A stretch of 64,000 nucleotides of DNA from Geothermobacter ehrlichii (GTDB taxonomy: Bacteria > Desulfobacterota > Desulfuromonadia > Desulfuromonadales > Geothermobacteraceae): contig NZ_VNIB01000001.1 of NCBI RefSeq assembly GCF_008124615.1, positions 62,001 to 126,000 on the forward strand, read 5' to 3'. Both the position numbers and the translations under genes were made by a program. Positions 1,451 to 27,112 of the stretch are shown piece by piece. Every line of letters starts with the position of its first letter. Position 1 is the first letter of the stretch. The notes beneath the pieces are model-generated. The model had not been told where the DNA came from. It was given only the letters and a program-made list of their open reading frames with translations, and searched no databases.

Positions 1451-1540
1451 GGCCCATAACTTATAGAGGTAAACGGGGGTGTCTGGCAAGGGGGGGCTGC
1501 GGCATGGCTGTCGTTGACTCGTGTCGATCAAATCAGGTAG

Positions 1541-1578
1541 TTTCATGAAAGACAAACGTGAATTTGTCTTGCATGAAA
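1541..1578. repeat. 38-bp near-perfect inverted repeat next to the receiver-PilZ ribosome site
   Basis: Two 16-base arms (1541-1556 and 1563-1578) pair at 15 of 16 positions around a six-base loop CGTGAA. The arms are AT-rich and there is no U-tract, so it is not a classical terminator. It lies in the divergent region between the exporter (start 1450) and the receiver-PilZ gene (start 1597). It ends one base before the AGGAGGG ribosome site of the latter. It could be a dimeric operator or an mRNA stem that controls ribosome access. Confidence 0.75.
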
Positions 1579-1596
1579 AGGAGGGTTTTCTTGGGA

Positions 1597-2340
1597 ATGA
1601 ACCGACTGATCGTACTCGTCGACGACAGCAAGACCTTCTCCATGTACATTGGCTTGCTGCTCAAGCGCATGGGGTTCGATGTCGTGCCGGCGGAGACCGT
1701 CGAAATCGGTCTGAAGATGGTGCGGGTGCTCAAGCCCGACCTCGTCCTGGTCGACCGCTTCATGCCGGGGGTCGACGGCACCGAGCTGATCAGGCTGCTC
1801 AAGGGCGATCCGGCGCTGGCGGAGATTCCGGTCGTGCTGGTGTCCGCCTCCGAAGAGCGCGGACTGGAGGCCGAGGCCCGGAAATATCGGGCCGACGGCT
1901 ACCTGCTCAAGCCGATCACCCCCTATGCGCTGCACCGGGTTCTTACCCGGATTTTCGGCCGGCGGGACGGTCCGACCCGGCAGCGGTTGCGCTGCTCCTA
2001 CCGGGAGAAGGTCGGGCTGCTGCATGCCGGTTCCGGCATGTCGTTGCCGGCGGTCAGCCTGTCCGAAGGGGGGATCTACCTGCGCCATCCCGATCCCTTG
2101 CCGGTCGGCAGCGAGGTGGAGCTTCTGCTGCCGCTTCCCGAAGGAGAGCTGCGGCTTTCCGGGCGGGTGATCTACCAGAAGGACGTTTTTCGCGACAGTC
2201 TGCGTATCGAGCCGGGGATGGCGATTCTTTTCGAGAATGTCGATGACGGAACGCGCGAGCGGCTGCGCAGCGTGATTTCCGATCTGCTCGCCGGCGACCT
2301 GGTCGAGGAGCAGCAGGAGGGTATTCTTTCCCTCGATTGA
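1597..2340 (+). CDS. Response regulator: receiver domain fused to PilZ domain
   Basis: Residues 1-120 form a CheY-like receiver with the acidic pair D9-D10, phospho-acceptor D53 (LVLVD) and the conserved K in YLLKPIT. Residues about 125-235 resemble a PilZ domain: an Arg-rich entry (RQRLRCSYREK) and an SLSEGGIYL segment at the place of the usual [DN]xSxxG motif. The first Asp/Asn is replaced by Ser here, so binding of c-di-GMP is plausible but not assured. The ATG at 1597 is preceded by GGAGGG; a TTG two codons upstream is an alternative start. The gene stands alone, with a strong terminator just downstream. A kinase partner is not adjacent. Confidence 0.85.
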   Translation: MNRLIVLVDDSKTFSMYIGLLLKRMGFDVVPAETVEIGLKMVRVLKPDLVLVDRFMPGVDGTELIRLLKGDPALAEIPVVLVSASEERGLEAEARKYRADGYLLKPITPYALHRVLTRIFGRRDGPTRQRLRCSYREKVGLLHAGSGMSLPAVSLSEGGIYLRHPDPLPVGSEVELLLPLPEGELRLSGRVIYQKDVFRDSLRIEPGMAILFENVDDGTRERLRSVISDLLAGDLVEEQQEGILSLD

Positions 2341-2357
2341 CGAAAGGAAGGGAGCGC

Positions 2358-2391
2358 ACAGAAAAGCCCTGCTGCAGCAGGGCTTTTCTGT
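2358..2391. terminator. Bidirectional rho-independent terminator
   Basis: A perfect 17-bp inverted repeat (ACAGAAAAGCCCTGCTG and its complement, with no loop bases left over). It carries an A-run on the left and a T-run on the right of the GC core. It lies between the convergent receiver-PilZ gene and the small minus-strand gene ending at 2409. Confidence 0.85.
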
Positions 2392-2408
2392 CAGGTCGCC
2401 GGCGCGGC

Positions 2409-2582
2409 TCACTGGGTTCGGGTGTGACACCTGGCGCAGGGAAAGGTGTCGATGTCCTGGTCGTTGTAGCGGCAGCTGTCACAGGTCATGTCCGGGTCGG
2501 ACCAGACAGGTCTGAACGGGTTGGGTCGGGATGGCGGAGATTCCATGCCGTCGGTTGCGCGCTCGAAGCGTTCCTTTTCCAT
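2409..2582 (-). CDS. Small protein with C-terminal four-cysteine motif
   Basis: A 57-residue product. The charged, Pro-rich N-terminus is followed by MTCDSCRYNDQDIDTFPCARCH, a CxxC-N11-CxxC pattern (C34, C37, C49, C52) suited to one zinc ion or iron. I recognise no named family. The ATG at 2582 has a textbook AAGGAGG site seven bases upstream, which makes translation likely. It follows another tiny Cys-rich gene (2711-2890) on the same strand, with a terminator between the two. The function is unknown. Confidence 0.65.
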   Translation of the reverse strand: MEKERFERATDGMESPPSRPNPFRPVWSDPDMTCDSCRYNDQDIDTFPCARCHTRTQ

Positions 2583-18122: not shown

Positions 18123-19385
18123 TCAAGCGTTGCTCTTCAATTCGTTCAGAAGATTCAGCCCTTTCGGGTCGAGCCGGATGTCGCGCTGGCTGCCGTCGTT
18201 CATGTCGCGCAACGGCGCGCTGCCCCGGCCCAGTTCGTCTTCGCCCAGAATCAGCACCCGCCGGGCCTGCAGCTTGTCGGCCCGCCTGAGCTGCGACTTG
18301 AGGCTGCCGCAGCGATAGTCCATTTCGGCCCGGATGCCGTTGCGCTGCAGCAGGGACATGAGGCGAAAGGCTTCCCTGGCCGCGTCCTCGCCCAGAGCGG
18401 CGATGAAAATCTCCGGTCCTTCCGGCTTCAGGCCGTCCGTTCCCTTGAGCAGGGCGAGGCGCTCTACTCCCATGGCGAAGCCGATGCCGGGCAGGTCGGG
18501 TCCGCCCAGCTGCCGAATGAGGCCGTCGTAGCGGCCGCCGGCGGCGACGGCGCTCTGGGCGCCGAGGTGGCGGGTGACCAGTTCGAAGGTGGTCTTGGTG
18601 TAGTAGTCGAGGCCGCGCACCATGCGGGGGTTGACGCTGAACGGCAGCCGCAGGCTTTCCAGGTGCAGCCTGACCTGCCGGAAGTGCTCCTCGCAGTCGG
18701 AGCAGAGATGGTCGAGCACCGAGGACGCTTCCGCCGTCGCCGCCAGGCAACCCGGGACCTTGCAATCGAGAACCCGCAGGGGATTGGTGACGTAGCGGCG
18801 GCGGCAGTCGTCACACAGCTGGTCGAGGCGCTGCTCGATGAAGCGGATCAGGTTGTCGCGGTAGTCCGGGCGGCACTGCGGGCAGCCGAGGGAGTTGATC
18901 TGCAGCTCGACGTCGAGCAGCCCGATGCTGTCGAAATAGTGCAGCAGCATGGCCAGCACCTGGGCGTCGATCTTCGGATCGTCGATGCCGATGACCTCGG
19001 CGCCGATCTGGTGGAACTGGCGGTAACGCCCTTTCTGCGGTCGTTCGTAGCGGAACATGGGGCCGCAGTAGAAGAGCTTGGCCACCTGGTCCACGGCGTG
19101 CATGCGGTGCTGGATGTAGGACCGCATGACCGGTGCCGTCCCTTCCGGCCGCAGGGTCAGGGATTGGCCGTTGCGGTCCTCGAAGGTGTACATCTCCTTT
19201 TCGACGATGTCGGTCGTCTCGCCGATGGAGCGGCAGAAGAGTTCGGTCTTTTCGACGATGGGGGTGCGGATCTCCCGGAAACCGTAGAAAGAGAAGACCC
19301 GCCGGGCCGTCGCCTCCAGCTCCTGCCAGAGGGGCGTTTCCGCCGGCAGGATGTCGTTCATGCCCTTGACGCCTGCAATGCTCAC
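18123..19385 (-). CDS. hisS: Histidyl-tRNA synthetase
   Basis: 420 residues. It opens with VKGMNDILPAETPLWQ and has class II motif 2 (FRYERPQKGRYRQFHQIGAEVIG), the histidine motif RMVRGLDYYTKTTFEL and a C-terminal anticodon-binding domain. The ATG overlaps the stop of the upstream adenylate cyclase gene by four bases, so its expression is tied to the signalling genes at 19382-24714. This pairing of a tRNA synthetase with cyclic-nucleotide enzymes in one run is unusual. Confidence 0.97.
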   Translation of the reverse strand: MSIAGVKGMNDILPAETPLWQELEATARRVFSFYGFREIRTPIVEKTELFCRSIGETTDIVEKEMYTFEDRNGQSLTLRPEGTAPVMRSYIQHRMHAVDQVAKLFYCGPMFRYERPQKGRYRQFHQIGAEVIGIDDPKIDAQVLAMLLHYFDSIGLLDVELQINSLGCPQCRPDYRDNLIRFIEQRLDQLCDDCRRRYVTNPLRVLDCKVPGCLAATAEASSVLDHLCSDCEEHFRQVRLHLESLRLPFSVNPRMVRGLDYYTKTTFELVTRHLGAQSAVAAGGRYDGLIRQLGGPDLPGIGFAMGVERLALLKGTDGLKPEGPEIFIAALGEDAAREAFRLMSLLQRNGIRAEMDYRCGSLKSQLRRADKLQARRVLILGEDELGRGSAPLRDMNDGSQRDIRLDPKGLNLLNELKSNA

Positions 19386-20872
19386 GAATCGGCTCCTTGT
19401 CTGCGATCGTTGTGCCGCGATTCCGGCAGCGGGCGGCTATCATCCTTCCAGCCGGTCGCGTTGTCAAGACTTTCGACCACCAGGCGAAGCCCGGTGACCC
19501 GGTAGAGGGAGACGGGTTTTTCCTTCCCCTTAAGCTGGATCGGGGGCATCGCTTCGGCCTCGACCGCCTGCTCGACCTGGCGCCAGGTCTGTTCCGAGAT
19601 CAGGATCTCTCCCGGGCCGGCCAGACCCTGCAGGCGGGCGGCGACATTGACGGTGTCACCGATGACCGTGTACTCCATGCGGCTCGAAGAGCCGATATTG
19701 CCGGCGATCACCGGCCCGGTATTGATGCCGATGCCCACCTCCAGCGGCGGCAGTCCTTTCCTTTTCTGTTCGATGTTGAAGTCGACGATGGCCCGCTGCA
19801 TGTCGAGGGCGCACTGCACGGCGCGCAGGGGGTCGTCGCCGAGAGAGACCGGCGCTCCGAACAGGGCCATGACCGAATCGCCCATCAGCTTGTCGACCAT
19901 GCCTCCGTTGGCGGCGATGACATCGATCATGGTGGAGAAATAGGCGTTCAGCAACTCGAGGATCCGGGCCGGCGGCAGCTTTTCCGCCAGCGGTGTGAAG
20001 CGGCGGATGTCGGCGAAGAGGACGCTGACCACCTTTTCCTCGCCGCCCAGTTCGATGGCGTCCCTGTGTTCGAGTATGATGTCGGTCAGCGGCTTGCTCA
20101 TGTAGCGTTCGAAGGTGTTCTTGATGAATTCCTTTTCCCGCAGGCTGGCCGCCATTTCGTTGAAGGCCGAGGTCAGGATGCCGATTTCGTCCCGTCGCCT
20201 GATGTCGATATGCTGGTCGAGGTTGCCGCGGCCGATCTGCTTGACCGCCTCGACCAGGGCCAGGACCGGCCGTACGGAAACGCCGGCCAGCAGGTAGGCG
20301 GCGATGCTCCCCAAAAGCAGGGCGGCCAGGGCCAGACCGGCCAGCCGGTAGCGCATGGCAAGAATTTCCCGCTGGATCGGCGCCTCGGAAAGACCGAGAT
20401 GGATGCTGCCGAGATAGATGGGAGGATCGGCGACCGAGTAGATCGGCACCCGCAGTTCGAGCAGCGGCTCCGGCATTTTGTCGATTTTCGCGACCTGGTA
20501 GTCGGCGGTTTTGGTCAGCAGTTTGCCGCGGAAGCCGGTATCCGGCCTGTTGCCGACCAGGGACAGGTCGTCCGCCGCCCGGATGGTGCCGTCCCGGCCG
20601 ACGATGCGGGCGTAGCGGATGCCGGGAGCCTTGCGGGTGTTGCGCACCGCCGAGAAGAGGTAGAGGTCATCGCCGGTCAGCAGCGGATCCTCGGCGTTGA
20701 AGGCGATGGCGCGGGCGATGCCGAGGCCCTTGTCGATGTTCTCCCGGTAGAGCGACTGGCGGAAGTTGTGCTCCAGCATCAGCATGACGATCGTCATCAG
20801 CAGGCCGCTGAAGACGGCCAGCAGCAGGGCAAAGCGAAATCGCAGGCTGGAAAAGAGTCCGGGTTCAGTCAT
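19382..20872 (-). CDS. Membrane-bound class III adenylate cyclase with HAMP domain
   Basis: 496 residues. The order is TM1 (about 13-32), an extracytoplasmic sensor of about 130 residues, TM2 (about 175-197), HAMP (about 197-250) and a class III cyclase domain (about 285-445). Catalytic features are visible: metal Asp in VLFADIRRFT and KLMGDSVMALFG, adenine-type Lys in VDKLMGD, and the Asn/Arg pair in GDTVNVAARL. It would make cAMP from ATP in response to an outside signal. It overlaps both the TPR gene upstream (8 bases) and hisS downstream (4 bases). Activity on GTP cannot be excluded from sequence. Confidence 0.88.
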   Translation of the reverse strand: MTEPGLFSSLRFRFALLLAVFSGLLMTIVMLMLEHNFRQSLYRENIDKGLGIARAIAFNAEDPLLTGDDLYLFSAVRNTRKAPGIRYARIVGRDGTIRAADDLSLVGNRPDTGFRGKLLTKTADYQVAKIDKMPEPLLELRVPIYSVADPPIYLGSIHLGLSEAPIQREILAMRYRLAGLALAALLLGSIAAYLLAGVSVRPVLALVEAVKQIGRGNLDQHIDIRRRDEIGILTSAFNEMAASLREKEFIKNTFERYMSKPLTDIILEHRDAIELGGEEKVVSVLFADIRRFTPLAEKLPPARILELLNAYFSTMIDVIAANGGMVDKLMGDSVMALFGAPVSLGDDPLRAVQCALDMQRAIVDFNIEQKRKGLPPLEVGIGINTGPVIAGNIGSSSRMEYTVIGDTVNVAARLQGLAGPGEILISEQTWRQVEQAVEAEAMPPIQLKGKEKPVSLYRVTGLRLVVESLDNATGWKDDSRPLPESRHNDRRQGADS

Positions 20873-23339
20873 GCCTGAAGCTCTCGATCTGGCTCAGCTT
20901 GCGCCGGGCCTTTTCGATGTTCATCCGCGCCTTTTCGTGATCGGGGTCGAGATTGAGAACCTGCCGCCAGGTCCGTACCGCTTCTTCGTAGTGCCCTCGG
21001 GTGTAGAGGTCGATCCCCTCGAGATAGAGCCTGGGGACGTCCTTGGGAGTCAGTCCCGTCCGCCGCAGCTCGCGCAGCCGTTTAAGTTTTTCCTTGGTCG
21101 CCGTGCTGTAGGGGTCGAGGGCGAGCGCCTGGCGAAGCCTTGCCTCCGCTTCCTGATAATCGCCCCGGCCGATGGCTTTCTCGCCCGCTGTCAGCAGGCC
21201 GGCGAGCTGCTTCTTCAGGTCGGCCCGCTCCCGGCGCAGGCCGGCGAGCGCCGTTGCGCTGTCCGGCTCCAGGTCGAGCACCCGGCGATAGGCGGCCAGG
21301 GCGCCGGCATGGTCCTGCTTCTGCTGCAGGGCCGCTGCCTGCTGCAGCAGGGCGTCGACTCTTTCCCGGACCCGGACTTCCAGCACCGCCCGTTGCCGGC
21401 GTACCTCCGGGTGCTCCGGGGCGATCGCTTCGGCCCGGGCGAGAATGCTCCTGGCATGGGCGAATTTTTGCGCCTCCATGGCCCGGTCTCCGGCGGTCAG
21501 CAGCTCCCGGATGCGGTGGTCGCTCTGGGCTTCGAATTCGCTCAGTTCCTCGCGGATGTCGGCCCGGTCGCTCAGGGTCAGGGCCTTCTGGTAGTGTTCT
21601 CTGGCCTGGGCCAGGTGGCCTGTCTGTCGGGCCCGGCGTGCCCATTGCAGCTCTTCCCCGACCAGTGAGGCGACCATGGCCTCCGTTCGGTCCAGTCCCC
21701 TGCGGGCTTCTTCGCTGGTCGGATCGAGGGCGAGGGCCGCCCGGAAGGCTTCCCGTGCGCCGGCCAGGTGCCCGGCTTCCAGGGCCTTGTCGCCGTCGGC
21801 CAGGTAGCGTTTGACCCGCTCGAGACGTTCGTGACTGATCTGTTGCAGACCCGCCCGGGCTTCCTCGCGGTCGGGGTCGAGGGCCAGCACCTGCCGGAAG
21901 AGGGCTTCTGCTTCCCTGTCGCTTCCCGCTGACAGCAGGGTCTGGGCGTCGGTCAGCAGGTTTTCGATCTGCCGGCCGAGGGCGGCGACCGCCGCCCGCT
22001 CGAGTTCGCGGGCGACCGGATCGTCGGGTCGCAGCCCGAGAGCCTGCCGCGTCCGTTCGAGGGCGGTTTGTGGATCTCCTCCGGACATGGCGTCGCGGCT
22101 TTCGGCGAGAAGCTTTCGGAATTTCTGCTCAAGATCCTCACGGCTTTGCTCGAGATAGCTGCGCGCCATGGTGTGATTGGGATTGATGGCCAGAGCCGCC
22201 TGCAGCTGGTCGATGGCCGCCCGGTAGTCCCCCTGCCGGTAGAGTCGACGTCCCGCCTGGTACAGGGTCTCGGCGGCTCCCTGGTCAGCCTTGACCAGGT
22301 TGAGGATGGCTTCCGGGTTGCCCGGCTGTTGCTCCAGTACCAGCTGGAACTCCCGGCGGGCTTCGCTGTATTCCTTCAGGGCGAGGTGGATGTTGCCGGC
22401 CAGAAAATGCGCCTGTACCGCCGTGGTTTTCGAATCCGCCAGCAGTTCGACCGCCGGCCGGGCTGCCAGCGGTTTGCCCTGCTCGAGGAGAGTGGCGGCG
22501 CAGTTGTAGACCATGGCGTTCAGGCTTTCGCGGGCCGATCCCGGCAGTTCGGGAGCGGCGTCGCGCAACAGGGACAGCGCCTGTTCCCAGTCCTGCCGCT
22601 GATAGGCCAGGTATCCCAGATAATAGCGGGCCAGGGATGACTGGGAATCGGTTGCGAGGGCCAGGCGAAAGGCCGTTTCGGCTTCGACGGGTTTCTTTTC
22701 GTTGAGGGCTGCGAGCCCCCGGTTGAAGCGGATGGTGAACAGGTAATCGCGGGCGGTTTCGTCGTCGGGGCGGGCCGCGAGCACCTGCTGCCATTGCTGT
22801 TCGGCCAGCCGGTCCCGTCCCTGGCGCAGGTAGATGTCTCCCAGCAGCCGCCTGGCCTCGATCTGCGGTCCGCCCAGGGCGAGGACCTTTCGCAGCAGCT
22901 TTTCCGCTTCGGCGAGATCGTCACGGTCGAGGCAGACAAGGGCCAGATTGAACGCGAGGCTGGCCAGCGGGTAGAGCTCAGGCTGCCCGGCGGCGCCCAG
23001 TTCCTCGGCCCGGTTGAGATAGATCTGGGCGCTGTCGACGTCGCCGGTGCGGCTCAGGGCCAGGGCCAGGTTGTAGTTGGCTTCGACCGAATCGGCAAGG
23101 TCCCGGTAGGCGCGGCGCAGTTCCTCCACCGCCTCGCCGTTGAGCCCGCGGTTGAGCAGGGCGACGCCGAGGTAGTAGTGCAGCATGCTGTTGTCGGAGT
23201 CGACGTTGAGGGCCTGCCGGTAACGTTCGATCGCCAGGTTCTGCAGGCTGTCTTCCGGGGATGCGGCGAAAACGGGGCCGGCGGCCAGGAGAATCGACAG
23301 CAGGAGCGGGATGACGATCCGCAACGAAACCATGGCCAT
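20865..23339 (-). CDS. Large exported TPR-repeat protein
   Basis: 824 residues. A signal peptide (MAMVSLRIVIPLLLSILLAA ... AASPED) is followed by tetratricopeptide repeats nearly end to end, with typical YRQALALDPDS- and AREAFRAALALDPTS-like units. No catalytic domain is seen, so it is probably a periplasmic scaffold. The start lies four bases after the stop of the GGDEF gene (ATG 23339, or 23333 as the alternative), and its stop overlaps the adenylate cyclase start. The ribosome site is weak, consistent with translational coupling. It may organise a complex with its neighbours; this is inference. Confidence 0.82.
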   Translation of the reverse strand: MAMVSLRIVIPLLLSILLAAGPVFAASPEDSLQNLAIERYRQALNVDSDNSMLHYYLGVALLNRGLNGEAVEELRRAYRDLADSVEANYNLALALSRTGDVDSAQIYLNRAEELGAAGQPELYPLASLAFNLALVCLDRDDLAEAEKLLRKVLALGGPQIEARRLLGDIYLRQGRDRLAEQQWQQVLAARPDDETARDYLFTIRFNRGLAALNEKKPVEAETAFRLALATDSQSSLARYYLGYLAYQRQDWEQALSLLRDAAPELPGSARESLNAMVYNCAATLLEQGKPLAARPAVELLADSKTTAVQAHFLAGNIHLALKEYSEARREFQLVLEQQPGNPEAILNLVKADQGAAETLYQAGRRLYRQGDYRAAIDQLQAALAINPNHTMARSYLEQSREDLEQKFRKLLAESRDAMSGGDPQTALERTRQALGLRPDDPVARELERAAVAALGRQIENLLTDAQTLLSAGSDREAEALFRQVLALDPDREEARAGLQQISHERLERVKRYLADGDKALEAGHLAGAREAFRAALALDPTSEEARRGLDRTEAMVASLVGEELQWARRARQTGHLAQAREHYQKALTLSDRADIREELSEFEAQSDHRIRELLTAGDRAMEAQKFAHARSILARAEAIAPEHPEVRRQRAVLEVRVRERVDALLQQAAALQQKQDHAGALAAYRRVLDLEPDSATALAGLRRERADLKKQLAGLLTAGEKAIGRGDYQEAEARLRQALALDPYSTATKEKLKRLRELRRTGLTPKDVPRLYLEGIDLYTRGHYEEAVRTWRQVLNLDPDHEKARMNIEKARRKLSQIESFRHD

Positions 23340-23343
23340 CGTT

Positions 23344-24714
23344 TCAGAGATCGAGGTGTTCGACGCCACGGGTGATGTTGCGCTCCTTCTTGCCGAGGTA
23401 CATGGCGTTGTCGGCCAGCTGCAGGATCTGGCGCTTGGTATCGGCGTCGGTCGGATAGGTGGCATAGCCGATGCTCGCCGTCAGGCGGAAATCCTGCTCC
23501 AGCTCCCTGAGGAAGACGTGCTGTTCGATGGTCCGCCGGATACGTTCGGCGACGACCGCCGCTCCCTTTTGTCCGGTTTCGACCAGCAGGGCGGTGAACT
23601 CGTCGCCGCCGTAGCGGAAGGGGATGTCGACTTCGCGGATGCTCTTGCGCAACAGCTGGGCCACCTCCTTCAGGGCGCGGCTGCCGGAGAGGTGGCCGTG
23701 GGTGTCGTTGACCTTCTTGAAATGGTCGATGTCGATAAAGATGACGGAAAACTCGAGGCCGTAGCGCTCGGCGCGGCGGATCTCCTGGTCGAGGGCGATG
23801 TCGAGATAACGCTGGTTGTACAGCCCGGTCAGGTCGTCGGTGTAGATCAGCTCCCGCGCCCCCTGGTAGCGAAAGGCGTTGTCGAAGCCGAGATTGGTCT
23901 GTTCGGCGAGAAACTGCAGGTTCTTTTCCGGCAGAGGTTCGGGAAAATCGCTGCTTACGGCGTTGATCAGCACCAGCCCGCCCTTGCATTCCTTCTGGCT
24001 GACGAGCGGAAAGAACAGGGCCTGCCGACAGTCGGGCGGCAGGTTTTCGCTGTCGGTTCCGAACGGCCGGTCGAGTCGGGTCAGCCCCGTTGCCTGCCGG
24101 ATGCGGGCCAGCAGCCGGGTGGCCAGAAAGCGGGCGTGGTAGTCCTCCATCCCTTCGGTCGTCAGGATCTTTTCGACGTTCAGTTTGCCGGCGAGAAAGG
24201 CGAATCCCCTGGCGGCGCCGATCTCCCGGACCAGGATGGCGGTGGCCCGGACGAGAAGCCGGTCGAGTTCGATCTGGCTGGCCAGGTCCTGCCCCTTGCG
24301 AAAGAGTTGCAGCTGGCTTTTGAGCAGGCTGTTCTCGTTCAGCAGTCGTCGCTGTTCGAGGCAGGTATGGACCAGGTGTTTCAGTTCTTCGGGATTGCAG
24401 GGCTTGATCAGATAGTCGCGGGCGCCGTTCTTCAGGGCCTGGACCGCGGTTTCGAGGGTGGCGTTGCCGGTGACCAGAACCACGTCGGGAGGATTGTCCA
24501 TCTCGCGGGCCTGCCGCAGGACCTCGAGACCGTCGACACCGGGCATGACCAGGTCGCTGAGCACGAGGTCGACGCCGCCTTGGCGGATGCGGTCGATAGC
24601 GGCTTGGCCGGAGTCGACGGTTTCGACCTGGCAGCCTTCTTCGCCCAGGATGTCGGAAAAGAGGCGGCGGAAGAAAAGTTCGTCGTCAGCCACCAGAACA
24701 ATCGGCGCAGGCAT
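23344..24714 (-). CDS. REC-GAF-GGDEF response regulator, Hypr (cGAMP-type) dinucleotide cyclase candidate
   Basis: 456 residues. A receiver domain (D54 phospho-acceptor) is followed by a GAF-like region (about 140-290) and a GGDEF domain (about 295-450, signature GGDEF at 369-373). An inhibitory I-site RxxD is present (R360-D363). The residue that pairs with guanine in c-di-GMP-only enzymes (Asp344 of PleD, within GHxxGD) is Ser345 here: GHLSGS. That same change defines the hybrid promiscuous GGDEF enzymes, such as GacA (GSU1658) of Geobacter sulfurreducens, which make 3',3'-cGAMP. Asn336 is kept. It is the first gene of the GGDEF-TPR-cyclase-hisS run. Confidence 0.88.
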   Translation of the reverse strand: MPAPIVLVADDELFFRRLFSDILGEEGCQVETVDSGQAAIDRIRQGGVDLVLSDLVMPGVDGLEVLRQAREMDNPPDVVLVTGNATLETAVQALKNGARDYLIKPCNPEELKHLVHTCLEQRRLLNENSLLKSQLQLFRKGQDLASQIELDRLLVRATAILVREIGAARGFAFLAGKLNVEKILTTEGMEDYHARFLATRLLARIRQATGLTRLDRPFGTDSENLPPDCRQALFFPLVSQKECKGGLVLINAVSSDFPEPLPEKNLQFLAEQTNLGFDNAFRYQGARELIYTDDLTGLYNQRYLDIALDQEIRRAERYGLEFSVIFIDIDHFKKVNDTHGHLSGSRALKEVAQLLRKSIREVDIPFRYGGDEFTALLVETGQKGAAVVAERIRRTIEQHVFLRELEQDFRLTASIGYATYPTDADTKRQILQLADNAMYLGKKERNITRGVEHLDL

Positions 24715-24766: not shown

Positions 24767-27112
24767 TCAATTGAAAAGCCCGGTGTCGCGTCGCCAGCCG
24801 TCGCCGGTCGCCGTCAGCCGGATGCAGCCGTCACGGTCGGTGCGCAGCAGCGTAACCCCCAGTTTCCGGCAGCTGGCGACAACGGTCGGGGCGGGAAGGT
24901 GGTAGGGGTTGTCGCGCCCGACCGAAACCAGGGCGAGGCGCGGTCGCAACCGCTCGAGCAGGCGGTCTGTCGCCGAATGCCGGCTGCCGTGGTGCGGCAG
25001 TTTGAGCAGGGTCACCGGCTTGTCGGGCAGGCTGTCGAGAAGCCGGGTGACGCCCGTGGCTTCGAGGTCGCCGGTGAGCAGGGCGCCGCTGTTTCCGGCG
25101 CGCAGGTAGACGGCCAGCGACCGGTCGTTGACCGAGGGTGCCGATTGCGGCGGCACCCAGATGCGCAGTTCCATGTCGGCATTCTGCTCCAGCAGGTGCC
25201 AGCCGGGTGCCAGTTGCCGTTGTCGTGTTTCCTGACGGATGGCGGCGCGGATCTCTTCCGGCAGCTCGTCGGCGGAGAGCGCCGAATAGAAGCTGTCGAC
25301 AGGGATGTGTCGCAGAATGGCGGCCAGGCCGAGGTAGTGGTCGGGATGGGGATGGGTCAGGATGACGCCGGTCAGCCGGTGGACGCCGAGACGGCCCAGC
25401 GCCGGGGCGACCAGCCTCTGGCCGATGTCGAACCGGGATTTGCGCAGTCCCCCGCCGTCGATCAGGTAGCTGTTGCCGCCGGGCATCTCTACCAGCAGCG
25501 ATTCTCCCTGGCCGACGGCGAAGGCGGTCAGCCGCAGCGGCCGGTCGGTTGCCAGGCGCGGCCAGGCCAGCAGCACGACGGCCAGCGCGGCCGCGGCGAC
25601 AAAGGGTTTCGTTCGCCCCCTGCTCAGGGCCGGCAGGGCGACGATGAGGACGGCGGAGGCCAGCAGCTGGAACGGATCCGGAAACCAGTCCCGGGCGCGC
25701 AGAGGTGGCCAGGTGGCGATCGTCTCGCTCAGCCAGAGGGTCTTTTCGGCCAGCAGACCGGCGAGATCCAGCAGGTATCCACTGCCGGGCAGATGGAGAA
25801 TGTGCCCCAGCACGGCGGCCAGGCCGAGGGGAAGGGCGGCGAAACCGATCAGGGGCACGGCGAAGAGATTGGTGACCAGCCCGGCCGGAACGATCTGATG
25901 GAAGTGCAGGCCGACCAGGGGAAAGGTCGCCAGGGAGGCGGCGGCCGTGGCCAGGGGAAGGTCGAGCAGCCTGCGCATCCGGGAGAAGAATCCGGAAAGC
26001 CTGGCGTGCCACGCCGGCAGAAAGAGGAGAATGCCGGCGGCTCCGGCCGCCGACAGCTGCAGTCCCGGTTCCCACAGGGCGAGGGGCTGAACGAGCAGCA
26101 TCAGCAGCAGGGCGAGCAGCAGAACGTCCGTCGGTCGCCGCCGTTCGCCGAACGCCAGCAGCAGTGCGGCGAAGGTCCAGACCAGCAGTGCGCGCAGGGT
26201 CGACAGGGCCTGCCCGGTGACCAGGGTGTAGAGAGCGAGCGGCGGGGTCAACAGCAGGGGCAGCATGCGGCCGGGAGGCTGCCAGAGCAACAGGCGTTCG
26301 CTGCGCCGCCAGGCGAAAAGTCCGAGCCGGTAGAGAAACCAGCCGAGCAGGCCGAGGTGCAGGCCGGAGATGGCCAGCAGGTGGGCCAGGCCGGCTCCGG
26401 CGACCCGTTGCCGCAGCCGTTCCGGAAAGGCGTCGCGGTTGCCGAGAACCAGTGCTTTGAGCAGACTGGCCCTGACCGGCGGCAGCCGGCTGTCGATCCA
26501 GTCGGACAGCTGTTGTCGCAGCCGGGCCAGACGCAGGCGAGGGGATGGTCCGCCCTTGGGAGCGAGGCGGGCCAGGCCGCGCTCGTTAGGCAGGTAGGCG
26601 GTTGCAAAGACGCCTTGCGCCGCCAGGTGCCGCGGATAGTCGAATTCACCCGGGTTGCCGAAGCGGGCCGGCCGCCGCAACCTGGCGCTGAACTGCACCC
26701 GCTCGCCGGGCAGCCAACTGTCTTTGGTCCGGTCGACGGTCAATCGCAGGTTGCCCGCAAGCGCGCGGATGGTCCCCTTGTCGTGCAGCTGCAGATCGCC
26801 CAGGTTCAGCCGCGACCGTCCATATTCGTCCTTTCGGGCCTGGATGACGGTGCCCGACAGCCGGTGCCTCTTGCCGTCGGTCAGCGCGAGCAGCCCCTCG
26901 GCTCCGGGTGGGGGATGGCCGGCATGCTGGTAGAGACCGATGCCGAGCAGGACCAGGGCAACGACCAGCAGAGGCTGCCCTTTCCGTGTGACGGGCAACA
27001 GTCCGGCGGTGGCCGTCAGTCCGGCGGCGAAAAGCCAGACGCCACTGTCGGGAACGACTGTTCCGAGCAGCAGGCCGGTGACCAGGGCCGTCAGGAACAG
27101 GGCCGGAAACAC
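24767..27112 (-). CDS. comEC: ComEC/Rec2-family DNA-uptake channel
   Basis: 781 residues starting at GTG. The N-terminal membrane segments enclose a soluble DUF4131-like domain. The competence core follows (AISGLHLGLLGWFLYRLG and LSTLRALLVWTFAALLLAFG), then a C-terminal metallo-beta-lactamase domain from about residue 530 with THPHPDHYLG and KLPHHGSRHS. ComEC carries single-stranded DNA across the inner membrane during natural transformation; the C-terminal domain may degrade the other strand. It starts seven bases after the stop of the secreted protein gene upstream. Type IV pilus genes elsewhere in the window could supply the uptake fibre. Confidence 0.93.
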   Translation of the reverse strand: MFPALFLTALVTGLLLGTVVPDSGVWLFAAGLTATAGLLPVTRKGQPLLVVALVLLGIGLYQHAGHPPPGAEGLLALTDGKRHRLSGTVIQARKDEYGRSRLNLGDLQLHDKGTIRALAGNLRLTVDRTKDSWLPGERVQFSARLRRPARFGNPGEFDYPRHLAAQGVFATAYLPNERGLARLAPKGGPSPRLRLARLRQQLSDWIDSRLPPVRASLLKALVLGNRDAFPERLRQRVAGAGLAHLLAISGLHLGLLGWFLYRLGLFAWRRSERLLLWQPPGRMLPLLLTPPLALYTLVTGQALSTLRALLVWTFAALLLAFGERRRPTDVLLLALLLMLLVQPLALWEPGLQLSAAGAAGILLFLPAWHARLSGFFSRMRRLLDLPLATAAASLATFPLVGLHFHQIVPAGLVTNLFAVPLIGFAALPLGLAAVLGHILHLPGSGYLLDLAGLLAEKTLWLSETIATWPPLRARDWFPDPFQLLASAVLIVALPALSRGRTKPFVAAAALAVVLLAWPRLATDRPLRLTAFAVGQGESLLVEMPGGNSYLIDGGGLRKSRFDIGQRLVAPALGRLGVHRLTGVILTHPHPDHYLGLAAILRHIPVDSFYSALSADELPEEIRAAIRQETRQRQLAPGWHLLEQNADMELRIWVPPQSAPSVNDRSLAVYLRAGNSGALLTGDLEATGVTRLLDSLPDKPVTLLKLPHHGSRHSATDRLLERLRPRLALVSVGRDNPYHLPAPTVVASCRKLGVTLLRTDRDGCIRLTATGDGWRRDTGLFN

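Follow-up and report, generated by a model that had tools for sequence, protein, structure and literature searches.

A GacA-family Hypr cyclase is retained in a Geothermobacter genome in which no GEMM-I riboswitch was detected

The window, which is the whole stretch of Geothermobacter ehrlichii DNA that was analyzed (64,000 nucleotides), carries on its minus strand a gacA orthologue (23344..24714, stop codon included) for a 456-aa REC-GAF-GGDEF cyclase of the Hypr type, an assignment based on the open reading frame, Pfam, the PDB match, orthologues, a tree and the predicted fold. The reading frame begins with ATG and has AGGAGGGAGCAG upstream. Pfam places a REC domain (Response_reg) at residues 6-115 (24370..24699, minus strand), and its phosphoacceptor, Asp54, is kept in 50 of the 52 aligned GacA orthologues. 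The GGDEF catalytic domain, residues 291-445 (23380..23844, minus strand), was located by Pfam, the PDB match and the fold, and it is preceded by a divergent GAF domain, which together with the helices on either side of it spans residues 142-292 (23839..24291, minus strand). Pfam made no GAF call in this protein and makes one in just 3 of 30 orthologues. When the middle domain was modelled alone with 30 orthologues, the model reached a pLDDT of 90.9 and its structural matches were nearly all GAF domains, led by 2w3g with Z 12.7, and therefore the REC-GAF-GGDEF architecture, which is that of GacA and had been proposed in the preliminary description, is correct, with REC and GGDEF coming from Pfam and GAF from the predicted structure.

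The key residues of the catalytic domain, all on the minus strand, were located by alignment or motif position. The motif NDTHGHLSGS has Asn at 336, GHLSGS at 340-345 and, at 345, the Hypr selectivity residue Ser (codon 23680..23682), which corresponds to Ser348 of GacA from G. metallireducens (GmGacA). The GGDEF motif itself occupies residues 369-373 (23596..23610), and the orthologue alignment places the I-site RxxD at R360xxD363 (23626..23637). The cross-dimer position, Arg in canonical diguanylate cyclases and Tyr304 in GmGacA, is Gln301 (codon 23812..23814). The replacement of Asp by Ser345 alongside intact Asn336, GGDEF and RxxD, as claimed previously, was thus recovered in full.

Downstream of gacA on the same strand lie genes for a TPR protein of 824 aa with a signal-peptide-like N-terminus (20865..23339), whose start codon is 4 bases past the gacA stop codon, for a HAMP class III adenylate cyclase (19382..20872), which overlaps both the TPR gene and hisS as in a coupled operon, and for hisS (18123..19385), a conserved neighbour by Pfam and synteny. 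On the other side is a comEC-like competence gene (24767..27112, minus strand), the conserved upstream neighbour by the same evidence. The TPR, adenylate cyclase and hisS genes named earlier are therefore all present, and it is only the "giant TPR" that needed adjustment, its start being revised to 23339 for a product of 824 aa.

The best PDB sequence match of the protein is the GGDEF domain of GmGacA (6d9m, E 6e-61), which is ahead by more than 50 bits of the next match (3e-43), and 6d9m is also the top fold match of the predicted GGDEF structure (Z 28.8; 167 residues superposed with an rmsd of 0.9 A and 60% identity). The structure and mutants of GmGacA indicate that Ser348 and Asn339 contact the base, that the Ser is functional only with GGDEF and not with GGEEF (the "Goldilocks" rule: GGDE[F/Y], never GGEEF), and that enzymes with Tyr, as in GmGacA, or with Ser, Ala or Gln in place of the canonical cross-dimer Arg make mostly cGAMP (PMC6456294). 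The window protein has Ser345 and not Asp at the base-contacting position, where Ser or Thr marks a Hypr enzyme, has Gln301 and not Arg at the cross-dimer position, and combines its Ser with GGDEF, as do all 52 orthologues. In the tree, the sampled Ser-type domains form one clade (98/96), to which both GmGacA and the window protein belong and from which only a divergent GGDDY protein of the same genome (L020) is excepted; GmGacA falls among the GacA rows, at a node with support of 91/97. A Ser at this position is rare elsewhere: among 89 GGDEF stretches from diverse unrelated genomes, taken from a scan of other genomes' contigs and mostly generic GGDEF matches, the residue is Asp in 80, Asn in 6, Ser in 2 (both from Bdellovibrionota) and Arg in 1, and that scan yielded one named GacA orthologue only (L111, from MAG J078). 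The alignable GGDEF domains of the window genome (G000) comprise 15 with Asp, 3 with Ser and 1 with Asn. Judged by its sequence, the window enzyme is a member of the GacA family of Hypr enzymes, and its residues predict that it produces cGAMP; the Hypr class given in the preliminary description agrees with every sequence feature that could be examined, including Gln301, which had not been named there.

A GacA homologue of essentially the same architecture was found in 52 of the 58 genomes of the order examined, two of the 52 being recovered as partial sequences. None of the 52 departs from the Ser, the Asn, RxxD or GGDEF, and position 301 is Tyr in 29, His in 15, Gln in 4, and Leu, Val, Phe and Ser in one each, but never Arg. 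Relative to the orthologue of G001, the only congener compared (genome 84% complete), dN is 0.17 and dS 0.87, and the GGDEF domains are 86% identical. The window gacA is a vertically inherited, strongly conserved GacA orthologue under constraint.

Most of the genomes sampled also carry a second subfamily of GAF-GGDEF proteins, about 310-380 aa long, with the Ser and an intact GGDEF, in which the cross-dimer position is mostly Ala, Ser or Gly. In the tree this subfamily is sister to GacA (support of 100/99 for the subfamily and 98/96 for the clade that unites the two); the relatives examined were L231, L232, L239, L246-L256, L258, L259, L261 and L262. Its representative in the window genome is at C8:68518-68988 on the minus strand (L014, ORF 1483-2418, minus strand), and it is present even in a family that lacks gacA (G021, G035, G043 and G052). 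Because this Ser has been reported in G. sulfurreducens only in GacA and GSU1937 (PMC8835794), the second subfamily seems to be a further kind besides the two known from that species. Its members are possible further cGAMP synthases.

GEMM-I riboswitches are the established receptors of the Hypr pathway in Geobacter. A search with RF01051 found none in the complete window genome (best match 17.3 bits, inside a flgA-like ORF) and none in the congener G001 (13.2 bits at most, at a site within an ATP synthase beta-like ORF); these genome searches scored shortlists, in G000 the best 150 of 220 candidates, so that a strongly divergent GEMM could escape. The best matches in the two genomes were of 13-17 bits, and the three examined overlap long ORFs (flgA-like, aminopeptidase-like and ATP synthase beta-like). 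The 17.3-bit match was considered as a degenerate riboswitch and rejected on account of its overlap with the flgA-like reading frame. By comparison, the same search of the relatives returned 1-39 GEMM-I in 51 of 58 genomes, with 16 in G002, 3 in G003 and about 5 in G004, the three further members of the family (as with all riboswitch counts here, these are lower bounds). A lineage-specific model (R1), built from the riboswitches of 30 relatives, reached 15.9 bits in G000, in overlap with long reading frames, whereas in G003 it scored 88 bits and in G007 56-83 bits. No c-di-GMP-II riboswitch was found in G000 either. The pathway from GacA through cGAMP to GEMM that is known from Geobacter consequently does not transfer to this genome as the preliminary description would have it, since neither it nor its congener yielded a GEMM-I of any sort.

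To recognize cGAMP-type riboswitches we used two patterns with A at position 20, based on the report that G20A switches GEMM-I towards cGAMP and that the Geobacter cGAMP riboswitch has A14 there (PMC6274999), with position 20 aligned to the present sequences by eye. These patterns matched nothing in G000 or G001 and ten sites in G002. Across the order, A20 riboswitches were detected in 36 of the 52 genomes with GacA, versus 1 of the 6 without it, and were not found by these strict patterns in the other 16 GacA-bearing genomes, of which four (G000, G001, G006 and G009) have no GEMM-I match at all in the RF01051 search. The co-occurrence of GacA and A20 riboswitches is suggestive, in a comparison that is blurred by relatedness and incomplete genomes. 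The cGAMP-type (A20) GEMM-I expected of the Geobacter pathway was thus found in the window genome by none of RF01051, R1 and the two patterns, all of which had positives in relatives. Two arrangements in the same family may be recorded here: in G002, a cGAMP-type (A20) GEMM-I (C24:30196-30272, L096) lies upstream of an ORF overlapping a PilZ match, and in G003 a tandem array of three near-identical G20-type GEMM-I, spaced at 254 bp, lies upstream of an ORF that contains Fn3-like sequence (C2:145876-146461).

GacA is promiscuous in vitro, and we infer the activity, product ratio and activation of the window enzyme by carrying them over from it. Phosphorylation of REC by some kinase, or ligand binding by GAF, would drive dimerization; each GGDEF half-site would bind GTP or ATP through Ser345 and Asn336, with Glu372 as the putative cross-dimer base; and 3',3'-cGAMP would be the main product, accompanied by c-di-GMP as a by-product that would inhibit the enzyme by feedback through the I-site. 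In view of the fact that GacA is retained without detectable riboswitches, we infer that the cGAMP signal in this genome is probably read by a protein receptor. PilZ proteins, which usually bind c-di-GMP, would be obvious candidates for reading it in place of a riboswitch. By its own terms, the preliminary description would be refuted if the genome had no riboswitch or receptor of the cGAMP type; the riboswitch half of this has been borne out, and for the receptor half there remain the 11 PilZ matches of G000, which stand beside 9 HD-GYP matches and include one HD-GYP-PilZ protein. The latter pairs both domains in one 848-aa frame (G000:C7:49055-49939), and similar match pairs occur in G002 and G003. 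The window itself contains a PilZ domain at 1975-2274 on the plus strand, within a 263-aa frame.

Taken together, we consider it very probable that the locus encodes a GacA-orthologous, response-regulator Hypr enzyme that makes mostly cGAMP, read by a protein in the absence of riboswitches. Two of the rival readings concern the riboswitches and the product. If riboswitches were present and merely too divergent for the models, the pathway would be the same as in Geobacter, and the scoring of shortlists in each genome, together with a vaguely GEMM-like string in the best Rfam match in G000, gives this some room; however, that match sits in the flgA-like frame, the R1 model that scored high in G003 and G007 found only low-scoring sites over long reading frames here, and both A20 patterns drew a blank in the two congeners, and we therefore regard such hidden riboswitches as highly improbable. 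It is also conceivable that the Ser has been kept in an enzyme that is mainly a c-di-GMP synthase in the cell, so that the loss of all detectable GEMM-I riboswitches from this lineage would be a loss of cGAMP signalling; GacA and Bd0367 do also produce c-di-GMP (PMC6456294; PMC9140294). Against this, an enzyme needed for c-di-GMP alone could regain the Asp through substitution, but the Ser is invariant in all 52 orthologues, including the four without a GEMM-I match, and Gln301 goes with a bias towards cGAMP, which makes a mainly c-di-GMP role quite unlikely.

A third alternative concerns the locus as a whole, which had been described as an unusual signalling unit. The genes for GacA, the TPR protein, the cyclase and HisS adjoin or overlap one another in the manner of an operon with translational coupling, and 9 of the 21 loci examined in relatives likewise have the cyclase and TPR pair between gacA and hisS. 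On these grounds GacA could act together with the TPR protein and the cyclase in a dedicated cyclic-nucleotide unit. Conversely, in 11 of the 21 loci, including that of G002 from the same family, gacA adjoins hisS with neither gene detected between them (the remaining locus has the TPR gene only), and hisS, aspS and comEC have housekeeping or general functions. All 21 loci preserve the series comEC-gacA-hisS-aspS, which is hence the usual arrangement in the order, with the cyclase and TPR pair in about half of the loci, so the description as unusual is not upheld and we judge a dedicated unit to be unlikely.

What makes the enzyme of interest is that a constrained Hypr synthase has been retained where its sole established receptor class appears to be missing. 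A genome with an intact GacA and no detected GEMM-I is a clean place to seek a protein receptor, which output through riboswitches should not mask there. It is also important to note that the presence of a Hypr enzyme does not equate to the presence of a Geobacter-like riboswitch regulon, as is evident from the GacA-bearing genomes in which the patterns used found no cGAMP-type GEMM-I and from the four with no GEMM-I match. We speculate, with somewhat less than even confidence, that in several lineages of the order GacA, with the second Ser-type subfamily beside it in most sampled genomes, signals via a novel protein receptor and not via GEMM-I. If so, the conserved core would be the pathway with the protein receptor, to which the riboswitch regulon would be added as an optional output.

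Of the systems already described, GacA of Geobacter (GSU1658 in G. sulfurreducens, and Gmet_1914 in G. metallireducens with the structure 6d9m) shares with the window protein its described domain architecture and, by comparison with 6d9m, the selectivity Ser, the Asn, GGDEF and the I-site, and differs in having Tyr where the window protein has Gln. The output side differs as well: G. sulfurreducens has 13 GEMM-Ib riboswitches (PMC8835794), and none was detected in the window genome. Canonical diguanylate cyclases such as PleD and WspR have the GGDEF fold, catalytic residues, REC input and I-site in common with the window protein, but they have Asp where it has Ser and, usually, Arg where it has Gln301. 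GSU1937 (TM-HAMP, GGDDF) has the selectivity Ser as well, but is a membrane protein with a degenerate motif, and its likely counterpart in the window genome is a separate gene: a TM-HAMP-GGDDY protein with the Hypr Ser that resembles GSU1937 is encoded at G000:C7:96861-97160 (L020, ORF 727-2043). Finally, Bd0367 of Bdellovibrio bacteriovorus and GacA/GacB of Myxococcus xanthus are Hypr-type enzymes of different lineages, likened here through their descriptions, whose cGAMP output was not ascribed to a riboswitch (PMC9140294 and PMC8844925, respectively) and whose receptor those reports did not identify; the idea of a Hypr pathway without riboswitches would thus not be a new one.
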